DNA of 44,609 nt. It comes from Streptosporangiaceae bacterium (GTDB lineage: Bacteria > Actinomycetota > Actinomycetes > Streptosporangiales > Streptosporangiaceae). The position numbers and the translations under genes are program-made. Of the stretch, positions 27,353 through 35,848 are shown piece by piece; within the stretch, counting starts at the first letter, position 1, and each line of letters opens with the position of its first letter. The stretch lies in NCBI GenBank assembly GCA_030038295.1, contig JASHPF010000041.1, forward strand, positions 1 through 44,609, given 5' to 3'. The notes under the pieces were generated by a model. That model was given only the letters and a program-made list of their open reading frames with translations, ran no database searches and was not told the DNA's origin.

Positions 27353-28534
27353 GTGACTACGAAACTTCCGCTTGACGACATCCGCGTCATCGACCTCACC
27401 GTTGCCAGGGCGGGTCCGACGTGCGTCCGTCAGCTCGCCGACTGGGGCGCCGACGTGATCCGGATCGAGCCACCCGCCAGCCCGGACGCGCCCGGCTTGG
27501 TCGGCAGCCGGCACGGCCCGGACTTCCAGCACCTGCACAGGAACAAGCGGTCGCTGGCGCTCAACCTCAAGGCACCCGGCGCGCGCGAGGTGCTCATGCG
27601 CCTGGTCGACGGCAGCGACGTGCTGATCGAGAACATGCGCCCGCCGGTCAAGCACCGGCTCGGCTTCGACTACGAGACCGTGCACGCGCGGAACCCGCGG
27701 CTGATCTACGGGTCGATCTCCGGCTTCGGTCAGGACGGCCCGTACGCCGACCGCGGCGGCGTCGACCAGATCGCGCAGGGCATGGGCGGCCTCATGAGCG
27801 TCACCGGACTGCCGGGCAGCGAGCCGACGCGGGCCGGCATTCCGGTGTCTGACCTGGCCGCCGGCCTCTACCTCGCCATCGGCGTGCTGGTCGCTCTGCA
27901 CGACCGGGAGCGGACCGGCAGCGGGCGCTGGGTGCAGACATCGCTGCTGGAATCGATGATCGCGATGATGGACTTCCAGGCGGCCCGGTGGACCATCGGC
28001 CACGAGGTACCCGCGCCGGCCGGGAACCATCACCCGATGAGCGTGCCGATGGGCTGCTTCGCCACCGCGGACGGCTACGTCAACATCGGCGGCGCGGACG
28101 GACGGCTGCTGGCGAGCCTCTGCGAGGTGGTCGGCCTGCCGTGGATCCCGGCCGACCCGCGTTTCGACTCCCTGCCCCGGCGGTCAGCAAACCGCGCCGA
28201 GCTGAACGCGCTCATCGGCGAGCGGCTGCGGACCCGGAGCACAGCGGAGTGGGTCGATACGCTGAACGCGGCCGGGGTGCCATGCGGCCCGGTGTACCGG
28301 ATGGACGAAGTGTTCGCCGACCCCCAGGTCGAGCACCTCGCCATGACCCAGGCCGTGGAGCACCCGACGCTCGGCACGCTGGACATCGTCCGCAACGCGG
28401 TGCGGATGACCGACACGCCGCCGACTGTGCGCGCGCCGAGTCCGGAGATCGGCGCGCACACCGGGGAGGTTCTCGGCGAGCTGGGCTTTCAGCCCGCGGA
28501 GATCGACCGGCTCCGTGCGGACGGCGTGATCTGA
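27353..28534 (+). CDS. CaiB/BaiF family CoA-transferase
   Basis: Class III CoA-transferase that moves CoA between carboxylic acids through a covalent aspartyl intermediate. The GTG at 27353 gives 393 residues. Visible motifs are IRVIDLTVARAGPTCVRQLADWGADVI (two parts, about 10-37), HRNKRSLALNLK (62-73), ENMRPPVKHRLGFDY (93-107), YGSISGFGQDGPYA (119-132) and the catalytic Asp167 in AGIPVSDLAAGLY. The partner acyl group is unknown. A crotonase-fold gene lies 42 bp downstream on the same strand, suggesting a two-gene CoA-ester catabolic operon, for example carnitine-like or branched-chain acids. Length is normal. Confidence 0.92.
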   Translation: MTTKLPLDDIRVIDLTVARAGPTCVRQLADWGADVIRIEPPASPDAPGLVGSRHGPDFQHLHRNKRSLALNLKAPGAREVLMRLVDGSDVLIENMRPPVKHRLGFDYETVHARNPRLIYGSISGFGQDGPYADRGGVDQIAQGMGGLMSVTGLPGSEPTRAGIPVSDLAAGLYLAIGVLVALHDRERTGSGRWVQTSLLESMIAMMDFQAARWTIGHEVPAPAGNHHPMSVPMGCFATADGYVNIGGADGRLLASLCEVVGLPWIPADPRFDSLPRRSANRAELNALIGERLRTRSTAEWVDTLNAAGVPCGPVYRMDEVFADPQVEHLAMTQAVEHPTLGTLDIVRNAVRMTDTPPTVRAPSPEIGAHTGEVLGELGFQPAEIDRLRADGVI

Positions 28535-28576: not shown

Positions 28577-29398
28577 ATGACGTCATCGAACTCCCGCGCG
28601 CGGCACGAGACGGGCACCGACCTGCTCCTTGTCGAGGTGACGGGTGCTGTCGCCGTCGTGACCTTCAACAACCCGGCCAAGCACAACGCCTTGTCCCGCG
28701 AGATCCGGGCCGCGCTGCCGGGCTCGCTGGCGGCGCTGCAGGCCGATTCGGAGGTCCGGGTGGTGGTGGTCACCGGGGCCGGCGACAAGGCCTTCGCGTC
28801 GGGTGCCGACATCTCCGAGTTCGGCGAGCTGCGTACGACGCCCACCGCGCGGGCGGACTACGACCGCGGCCAGGCGGCGCTGGCGGCCGCGTGGAGCGGC
28901 CTCGGCAAGCCGGTGATCGCCATGATCCGCGGCTTCTGCATGGGCGGCGGCCTGCTGACCGCGCTCCAGGCAGACATCAGGATCGCCAGCAACGACAGCC
29001 AGTTCGGCGTTCCCGCGGCCCGGCTCGGCCTCGGCTACGGCTTTTCCGGCGTCACCACGCTGATGGGACTCGTCGGCCCGGCCTGGACCGCCGAGATCCT
29101 GTTCTCCGCGCGGCGGTTCTCGGCGCCCGAGGCCCTGCAGATGGGCCTCGTCAACCGCGTCGTGCCCGCCGCCGAGCTCCGCGATCAGGTCATGACGCTG
29201 GCGGGCGGCATTGCCCAGAACGCGCCGCTGACGGTCGCGGCGGCTAAGGCCGCGATCCACGAGGCCGGCCGGGCGCCTGAGGTGCGCGACCTGGCCAGGG
29301 TCGAGGACATGGTCGAGGCGTGCTTCCGGTCCGAGGACTACCGGGAGGGCCAGCGCGCGTTCGCGGAGAAGCGGCCGCCAGCGTTCACCGGCCGCTGA
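28577..29398 (+). CDS. Crotonase-fold protein (enoyl-CoA hydratase/isomerase family) lacking both catalytic Glu
   Basis: Crotonase-family CoA-binding enzyme, 273 residues, starting at ATG 28577 behind GGAGAAAGGA. The fold signatures are present: FNNPAKHNALS (30-40), the first oxyanion segment AFASGADISEF (72-82), and the second, GFCMGGGLLTAL (119-130). The two glutamates used by classical enoyl-CoA hydratase are absent: the GGGCE position is GGGLL (Leu127) and the QPE position is VPA (Ala147, in QFGVPAARLGLGYG). Water addition is therefore unlikely by the classical mechanism. Isomerase, decarboxylase, thioesterase or hydrolase activity is possible. It is probably co-transcribed with the CoA-transferase and converges on glyA with a 12-bp gap. 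Confidence 0.85.
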   Translation: MTSSNSRARHETGTDLLLVEVTGAVAVVTFNNPAKHNALSREIRAALPGSLAALQADSEVRVVVVTGAGDKAFASGADISEFGELRTTPTARADYDRGQAALAAAWSGLGKPVIAMIRGFCMGGGLLTALQADIRIASNDSQFGVPAARLGLGYGFSGVTTLMGLVGPAWTAEILFSARRFSAPEALQMGLVNRVVPAAELRDQVMTLAGGIAQNAPLTVAAAKAAIHEAGRAPEVRDLARVEDMVEACFRSEDYREGQRAFAEKRPPAFTGR

Positions 29399-34111: not shown

Positions 34112-34222
34112 GGCAGCCACGTACAGTTCGGGTAAGGACAGGGGAACGGGCTCGTCCGGCAACTCGGCCCGGGGCTGCACAGCCGTCGCGGCTCGCCCGC
34201 CCCCACCAAGGAGCGCCCACGA

Positions 34223-35848
34223 ATGACACCAGCCGCCCTGGTCGATCCCACTTCGGCGCCGCGGCCGCAGGCGCCGGACGCGGGGATCGCCGCTCCCCTC
34301 GATTCACTGGCGGGCCGCAAGGTCGCGCTCGTGAAGAACGCGTGGCCGTCCTGGCACCGGATGGCCGACCGGCTCGGCAGCCTCCTCGCTGATCGGGAGC
34401 ACAGCGCCGGGACGCCGCAGCACCTGGTGCCCAACGGGTCCGCGGCCGACCCCGAACAGCTCAGGCTCATCGCGGCAGCGGCCGACGCCGCCGTCGTCGG
34501 GCTGGCCAACTGCGGATCGTGCACCGCGTGGAGTCACCACGACGCCGTCGTGCTGTCATCCCTCGGCATACCCGTCGTGCTGGTCGTCACCAGCGAGTTC
34601 ACCAGCCTCGTGGACGCCCTGGCGAAGAGCACCGGGGTCCGGCTGCCCACGGTGACGATCGGCACCAACCCGGAGACCGTCGATGCGGGCACCGCGCTGC
34701 ACCTGCTGGACGACGCCTACCCCGCCGTCATCCGGGCGCTCACGACGCCGCCGACACCGGCCGACGCCGGGCGCGCCTGGCCGGCGAGCGGCGCGCGGTC
34801 GGCCGCCGGAGCCGACGGCGGGCGCGCGGTGCTCGCGGAGCCGATCCTCGCGGACGGGGACGAGGCGGACGCCGTCGAGCGCTGTCACAGGCTGGGCTGG
34901 ACCGACGGCCTGCCGGTGATCCCGCCCACCGGGCATCGGGTCGAGAAGATGCTGGCCGTCCTCGGCGACCCGGATGACGTCGTGGCCTCGATGCCGCCGT
35001 CCGGCGCTCCGGTGACCAACCGCGCGCTCGCCGCGAACGCCGTCATGGCCGGCTGCCTGCCGGCGCATCTCCCGGTGCTCGCCGCCATCGTCCGCGCCGT
35101 GTGCGTGCCCGAGTTCAACCTGCACGGCATCGCCACCACGACCGGACCATCGACGCCGTTCGCGGTCGTCAGCGGGCCGGCCGCTGGCGACGCCGGCCTC
35201 AACGCGGGCCGCGGCGCGCTCGGCCCTGGCTGGCGGGCGAACGCCAGCATCGGGCGCGCGCTTCGGCTGCTGATCGCGAACGTCGGCGGCGCCCGCCCCG
35301 GCGAGGTGTCGAAGTCGATCATGGGGCAGCCGGGCCGGTACACCATGTGCATCGCCGAGAACGAGGCCGAGTCGCCCTGGGAGCCGCTACGCGTGACCCT
35401 GGGCCTGGACCAGAGCCAGAGCGCCGTCACCGTGCTCGGCGCCACCGGGACCATGAACGTGCTGACGCCCCGCGGTGACGTCGACGCGATGCTGACGATC
35501 CTGGCCGACTCGCTGGCCTACCTGGGCAACCCCAACGTCGTGATGGGCAAGGGCACGGTCGGCGTCCTCGTCACGCCCGGCCACGCCGCGGCCATGGCTC
35601 GCGCCGGGCTCGCCAAGGCCGACGTCGCGGCCGAGATCTGGGCCCGGTCGTCGATCCCGCTCGACCGGTTCCCGGCCTCCGGCCATCCCGACCCGCCGTA
35701 CGAGTTCATCCTCCGCGACGGCCGCGTGTACCCCGTAGCCGGGCCCGAGCGCGTCTGCGTGATCGTCGCCGGCGGACCGGAGCCGACCCACGCCACCGTC
35801 GTGCCGAGCCACCCGAGCTGCAATCCGGTGACCGTTCCGATCACGTAG
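34223..35848 (+). CDS. UGSC-type (Cys form) domain fused to a large conserved domain of unknown function
   Basis: The 541-residue protein has two parts. Residues about 28-170 form a Rossmann-like UGSC domain: ALVKNAWPSW, then AAVVGLANCGSCTAWSHHD with Cys97-Gly-Ser-Cys100 where selenoprotein relatives carry Sec-Gly-Ser-Cys, then LGIPVVLVVTSEF. The codon at 97 is TGC, so this is the cysteine version. After a Pro/Ala-rich linker (about 175-215) comes a domain of about 320 residues with WTDGLPVIPPTGHRVEKML, AVMAGCLPAHLPVLAAIV, EFNLHGIATTTGP, GPGWRANASIGRALRL and CIAENEAESPWEPL. I know this second family only as conserved and uncharacterised, often near UGSC proteins. It overlaps the convergent kinase gene by 8 bp. 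Confidence 0.8.
   Translation: MTPAALVDPTSAPRPQAPDAGIAAPLDSLAGRKVALVKNAWPSWHRMADRLGSLLADREHSAGTPQHLVPNGSAADPEQLRLIAAAADAAVVGLANCGSCTAWSHHDAVVLSSLGIPVVLVVTSEFTSLVDALAKSTGVRLPTVTIGTNPETVDAGTALHLLDDAYPAVIRALTTPPTPADAGRAWPASGARSAAGADGGRAVLAEPILADGDEADAVERCHRLGWTDGLPVIPPTGHRVEKMLAVLGDPDDVVASMPPSGAPVTNRALAANAVMAGCLPAHLPVLAAIVRAVCVPEFNLHGIATTTGPSTPFAVVSGPAAGDAGLNAGRGALGPGWRANASIGRALRLLIANVGGARPGEVSKSIMGQPGRYTMCIAENEAESPWEPLRVTLGLDQSQSAVTVLGATGTMNVLTPRGDVDAMLTILADSLAYLGNPNVVMGKGTVGVLVTPGHAAAMARAGLAKADVAAEIWARSSIPLDRFPASGHPDPPYEFILRDGRVYPVAGPERVCVIVAGGPEPTHATVVPSHPSCNPVTVPIT

Follow-up and report, generated by a model that had tools for sequence, protein, structure and literature searches.

Selenoproteins of the GrdB/PrdB type, the catalytic subunits of glycine, sarcosine, betaine and D-proline reductases, are associated with amino-acid-fermenting clostridia and have a pyruvoyl partner, GrdE or PrdA. 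In C. sticklandii, selenocysteine (Sec) lies at residue 350 of 436 in GrdB and at residue 152 of 242 in PrdB (PMC3091704). The selenoprotein UGSC was seen in 2008, in Global Ocean Sampling data, joined to an unknown conserved domain (‘UGSC/Unknown_1’); that paper supposed a thioredoxin-like fold and a redox function for UGSC and, as read here, drew no link to GrdB or PrdB (PMC2398784). A 2026 review lists UGSC among selenoproteins with largely uncharacterised functions (PMC13188914). Here we describe a gene in a 44,609-nucleotide stretch of Streptosporangiaceae bacterium DNA (contig JASHPF010000041.1; hereafter the window) that encodes a UGSC domain fused to a large second domain, which we named DGLP after its first motif. 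We favour, with modest confidence, the reading that its product is a fused reductase of two parts that depends on a selenol or thiol and draws electrons from a thioredoxin-type source, DGLP being the part that holds a small substrate; the window copy is a Cys form.

The window protein shares with the UGSC family (PF24696/NF041046) and with the 2008 fusion a whole-length UGSC domain, the motif and the fusion to a large uncharacterised domain; Cys takes the place of Sec. A preliminary description, made from the DNA letters, had assigned the N-terminal half to UGSC; indeed, residues 6-174 matched PF24696 with E=6.8e-28 and 98.4 bits against a curated cut-off of 25, covering positions 2-171 of the 172 in the profile. 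With the NCBIfam equivalog NF041046 (UGSC_fam) the protein reached 64-67 bits, under the 125-bit cut-off, while 8 of 10 other UGSC members scored 124-175 bits, which marks the window copy as divergent within the family. In a UGSC tree with weak support on many inner branches, it grouped with three fused Cys-form actinobacterial sequences, and the wider group included separate Sec-form Chloroflexota genes.

The second domain, put at about 320 residues in the preliminary description, comprises about 330 (210-541) and matched no family in Pfam or NCBIfam. The motifs listed for it, DGLPVIPPT, EFNLHGIATTTGP and GPGWRANASIG, were all found, at residues 228-236, 297-309 and 334-344, respectively. DGLP is kept in actinobacteria, alphaproteobacteria, Chloroflexota and haloarchaeal plasmids, and its conservation across these lineages is therefore far beyond chance. 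DGLP is likely the Unknown_1 of the 2008 paper, and a fusion of UGSC is not new, since UGSC/Unknown_1 was described there (PMC2398784). PDB sequences searched with the full-length protein, and with a profile for each half, contained no significant match, and viral contigs searched to deepen the alignment yielded no relatives.

UGSC and DGLP are near-obligate partners. Bacteria and some archaea elsewhere nearly always encode the two side by side, and in a survey of 448 genomes all 28 UGSC-positive genomes also carried DGLP. Among 297 genomes of the actinobacterial class, UGSC occurred in 17, DGLP in 18 and both in 17, the eighteenth DGLP-positive genome holding only a 40-residue fragment; the corresponding numbers for 151 Chloroflexota genomes were 11, 12 and 11. 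The hypergeometric P values for this co-occurrence (~1e-26 and 7e-16, respectively) overstate the certainty because related genomes are not independent. At the level of gene copies, DGLP lay at most 600 bp away on the same strand for 60 of 66 UGSC genes. When 88 distinct UGSC sequences were compared, DGLP was downstream of 35, upstream of 33, fused to 13 and missing from the fetched stretch for 7, giving 13 fusions and 68 pairs of separate neighbours. UGSC precedes DGLP in every fused gene whose order was read here; a further fused locus (L014), with a frame break past the UGSC part, was scored as separate. On the UGSC tree, the fusion state has to change six times.

It is extremely improbable that fusion and adjacency are a historical accident with no common function. 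The seven sequences without a DGLP gene close by, together with some DGLP genes that occur alone, would fit such an accident, but several of these exceptions come from the ends of contigs or from genomes with multiple copies, and the presence of both domains in every UGSC-positive genome surveyed, the two gene orders and the repeated changes of fusion state all speak against it. The pairing thus strongly supports the joint action of the two parts that had been read from the fusion in the preliminary description.

In the window's genome UGSC occurs four times, always accompanied by DGLP: two copies are fusions and two are pairs of adjacent genes. The three copies outside the window (genome G000, contigs C164, C180 and C420; loci L001, L002 and L004) comprise the two adjacent-gene arrangements and one fusion with a CGRC motif. 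Larger sets were observed in two Chloroflexota genomes, with 12 UGSC copies in 4.1 Mb (G627) and 8 in 2.0 Mb (G612), most of which adjoin DGLP.

Sec and Cys exchange at a single position of UGSC. The first Cys (Cys97) of the window's CGSC motif, proposed earlier as the counterpart of Sec, is encoded by TGC (34511-34513) and aligned with in-frame TGA in relatives; at this position 59 of the 88 distinct sequences had TGA (Sec) and 28 had Cys, and a few others have TGA in variants outside this count (USTC; UGSC followed by Ile or Val). Cys100 is also encoded by TGC (34520-34522), and, with Sec written as C, neither motif position varied across 35 aligned UGSC domains. In-frame TGA was found at loci L013, L014 and L015 and in nearly all alphaproteobacterial and Chloroflexota copies, and the UGSC tree requires six Sec/Cys changes. 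SelA was present in all but one of the Sec-form genomes tested for it and in 6 of 14 genomes with Cys forms only, including that of the window. The SelA copy in the window's genome is partial (G000:C357:3293-3826), though all four UGSC copies use Cys.

Two further observations concern the motif and its annotation. Loci L113 and L115 (~1504-1986) have a variant Sec motif, HUSTCAP, and a thioredoxin-reductase-like gene lies next door in the same genomes (L207, L211). GrdB has a UGTC motif, which the HUSTCAP variant resembles. On an IncP plasmid of Acidovorax sp. T1 (L213:7956-9488), a fused Sec-form gene appears in the gene table only as a short hypothetical protein ending at the TGA.

The 35 UGSC domains were scanned against 18,950 NCBIfam models. 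Apart from UGSC itself, just five families were matched by three members or more, all of them selenoproteins of the GrdB/PrdB type: glycine reductase selenoprotein B (10 members), PrdB (9), sarcosine GrdF (9), the general selenoprotein B family (6) and betaine GrdH (3), counts that are not independent because the matching members are related. The best E value was 4.6e-4, and the curated cut-offs (PF07355, TIGR01917, TIGR01918 and TIGR04483) were not reached, the best scores being 10-18 bits against 65-800. The UGSC Sec/Cys maps to position 346-350 of TIGR01917 and to position 148 of the PrdB model; the weak matches gain support because these positions fall at or near those of Sec in the C. sticklandii proteins. 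An hhalign comparison of the UGSC alignment with short alphaproteobacterial PrdB-like proteins brought their Cys/Sec columns into register at P=9.6e-5, and the value for DGLP against the same set was 0.6. Short PrdB-like proteins of alphaproteobacteria (L073 and L136-L144, e.g. the L136:1628 region) carry UPxC or, in one case, CPNC, and many of the genomes that encode them also have UGSC.

The sequence comparisons thus indicate that UGSC is likely homologous to the Sec-bearing domain of GrdB/PrdB, at scores below the family cut-offs. With GrdB, GrdF, GrdH and PrdB it shares a UxxC/CxxC centre in register with their Sec-bearing C-terminal domain, whereas the N-terminal part of GrdB is absent from UGSC. 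The partner also differs: the regular neighbour of UGSC is DGLP, and no GrdE/PrdA-like partner was detected. In contrast to the clostridial GrdB/PrdB systems, the UGSC genes analysed here come from actinobacteria, alphaproteobacteria, Chloroflexota and haloarchaeal plasmids.

AlphaFold2 models were obtained for the whole protein (predicted local distance difference test (pLDDT) 76, predicted template modelling score (pTM) 0.79, 12 sequences) and for DGLP alone (pLDDT 80, pTM 0.85, 10 sequences). In the UGSC part, strands and helices alternate, and Cys97 is placed at the N-terminus of a helix right after the third strand. VIA-align gave a best Z of 11.2 (root-mean-square deviation (rmsd) 2.4 over 118 residues), with mostly Rossmann- and receiver-like proteins in the top rows. 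UGSC is therefore predicted to be a Rossmann-like sandwich, counter to the thioredoxin-like fold supposed in 2008. A thioredoxin-fold thiol oxidoreductase or peroxidase with an accessory second domain, as the 2008 view would have it, accounts for the UxxC motif, and a paper on GrdB peroxidase activity stands in the reference list of PMC3091704. We nevertheless judge it improbable, given the modelled position of Cys97 and the nature of the top structural matches; moreover, none of the 35 UGSC domains matched a thioredoxin-family model in Pfam or NCBIfam, and a large obligate partner would be unusual in a peroxidase. The structural matches listed for UGSC include no thioredoxin-fold entry, although such an absence does not exclude that fold.

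For DGLP, VIA-align reached a best Z of 6.2, and no fold was assigned because both the Foldseek and the VIA-align matches were below a safe level. A class I fumarate hydratase fold was considered and set aside, as the top Foldseek matches combined E 2e-4 with rmsd 12-18; iron-sulphur chemistry of the fumarate hydratase kind is likewise disfavoured, since the three conserved Cys are not present. Conserved residues across 77 DGLP sequences include Asp228, Pro231, Arg345, Asn353, Glu379 and Trp386. No Cys is fully invariant (Cys278 86%, Cys376 73%). This pattern is more in keeping with binding than with redox chemistry by DGLP.

The gene neighbourhoods point to a source of electrons. A thioredoxin-reductase-like gene with CxxC was close by in 12 of about 69 neighbourhoods, and such flavoprotein genes lie near UGSC/DGLP at loci L013, L014, L157, L158, L186, L187, L188, L193, L207 and L211. 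A plasmid record of Roseovarius sp. THAF8 has DGLP, UGSC and an annotated trxB in a row, all of them Cys forms, and annotated trxB is also near UGSC/DGLP on a plasmid of Variovorax sp. SRS16. In 16 genomes, 12 of 47 thioredoxin-reductase-like genes were close to UGSC against 0.26 expected, a figure inflated because 11 of the 16 genomes were picked after the association had been seen; new occurrences were found in G488, in G312 and at a second place in G297. As the pair is often encoded beside thioredoxin reductase, UGSC-DGLP is probably a thiol-driven reductase. Thioredoxin reductase likewise drives glycine reduction (PMC3091704). At L013:4046-7988, and likewise at L188 and L186, the gene for a Sec-form fused protein (CUGSC) has beside it both another DGLP gene and one for a thioredoxin-reductase-like protein; the arrangement at L013 and L188 is possibly a three-gene operon.

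Taking pairing, active residue and neighbours together, we infer a cycle of reductive cleavage in which DGLP binds the substrate and thioredoxin supplies the electrons. The nucleophile would be Cys97 of the N-terminal domain, a position occupied by Sec in most relatives, and Cys100 would be the resolving thiol; DGLP would most likely bind and orient a small organic substrate in place of the pyruvoyl protein GrdE/PrdA. Cys97 or Sec97 may attack the DGLP-held substrate or accept its leaving bond, and resolution by Cys100 would leave a disulphide (CxxC) or selenosulphide (UxxC) for thioredoxin and thioredoxin reductase to reduce again. The redox chemistry suggested in the preliminary description is in this way backed indirectly, by the GrdB/PrdB-type similarity and the neighbouring thioredoxin reductases.

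Several points weigh against a reductase of this kind. Besides the relatedness of the members matching GrdB/PrdB models, the biased choice of genomes in the thioredoxin reductase count and the absence of a fully invariant Cys in DGLP, both structure models were built on only 10-12 sequences. Single-sequence matches to GrdB/PrdB models were weak (E 0.0005 to 0.17), Pfam GRDB (PF07355) was matched by 0 of 35 UGSC domains, and 11 DGLP sequences gave no match to GrdE or PrdA models with the limit relaxed to E 10. No trxB homologue was found in the window, its genome having two elsewhere. Furthermore, neither active residue survives in the fused relatives on plasmids of Sporomusa termitida and Vibrio europaeus, MGTS replacing CxxC (DMGTS). 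Going by these sequences, either DGLP in that branch has to function without the two thiols or the protein has to serve another role.

This branch is the main reason for leaving some probability to the opposite division of labour, in which DGLP itself is the enzyme (e.g. a hydrolase, lyase or hydratase) and UGSC, instead of being the reductive centre, is a subunit for regulation or redox sensing or provides an alternative nucleophile. The Sporomusa and Vibrio proteins retain both domains despite the MGTS, beside aconitase X genes, and the strongly conserved polar residues Asp228, Arg345, Asn353 and Glu379 would suit a catalyst. Structural comparison hints weakly at class I fumarate hydratase (E 2e-4 in Foldseek, though at rmsd 18) and at cyclic amide hydrolases (Z 5.8 in VIA-align, with rmsd 6.1 over 162), yet both are under any safe threshold. 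Nearly all relatives keep CxxC/UxxC, where Sec would be hard to explain unless catalytic, and the thioredoxin reductase neighbours indicate thiol turnover; we therefore regard DGLP as the enzyme as rather unlikely and retain the two-part reductase as the preferred reading. The MGTS proteins are encoded at L215:7317-9041 and L217:7323-9008, beside aconitase X and DUF126 genes. Aconitase X was also considered as a general link, and discarded because it adjoins three loci only.

A broader proposal, which we put forward only tentatively, is that UGSC-DGLP represents a widespread, undescribed class of two-component (seleno)reductases in which a GrdB/PrdB-type selenol domain is combined with a dedicated thioredoxin reductase and with a new kind of substrate-binding protein that has no pyruvoyl group, and which bacteria and haloarchaea outside the fermenting clostridia use to cleave bonds between carbon and heteroatoms in small organic compounds. 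If true, selenol chemistry of the amino-acid-reductase type, altered and also with Cys, would reach far beyond those clostridia. With the GrdB/PrdB tie, the obligate partner and the thioredoxin reductase, what was an orphan selenoprotein becomes a defined system of two or three genes open to expression and assay. The fused Cys-only copy is practical for this, being a single gene that makes Sec insertion unnecessary.

Table 1 Features of the fused UGSC-DGLP gene and its product in the window
Feature	Position	Strand	Remarks
Shine-Dalgarno-like AAGGAG	34208..34213	+	9 nt 5' of ATG; sequence read directly
Fused UGSC-DGLP protein, 541 aa	34223..35848	+	Single open reading frame, ATG start, TAG stop
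UGSC domain (PF24696), residues 6-174	34238..34744	+	Predicted alternating alpha/beta (Rossmann-like) fold
Cys97-Gly-Ser-Cys100, putative active-site motif	34511..34522	+	Most relatives have Sec (TGA) at 97
Linker, low confidence, residues 175-209	34745..34849	+	pLDDT 26-40 in core
DGLP partner domain (‘Unknown_1’-type), residues 210-541	34850..35845	+	Without Pfam or NCBIfam family
DGLPVIPPT motif, residues 228-236	34904..34930	+	Asp228 99%, Pro231 100% (77 sequences)
GPGWRANASIG motif (334-344) and Arg345	35222..35257	+	Arg345 99% (77 sequences)
AENE motif	35354..35365	+	Glu379 invariant (77 sequences)

Genes recurring near UGSC-DGLP encode coenzyme A (CoA)-transferase III (15 stretches), short-chain dehydrogenases/reductases, ATP-binding cassette transporters of the Opp/Dpp type, amidohydrolases and RraA-like proteins; tripartite uptake systems and acyl-CoA dehydrogenases were also noted. 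This company suggests catabolism of organic acids or related compounds and is too mixed for a substrate to be named. Argininosuccinate synthase, encoded directly upstream in the window, was judged a chance neighbour because the gene is the genome's only copy and the arrangement is common only to one close relative. The window also contains class III CoA-transferase-like and enoyl-CoA hydratase genes (27368-28531 and 28577-29398) 5-7 kb upstream of the fused gene, and CoA-transferase III commonly neighbours UGSC-DGLP in other genomes.
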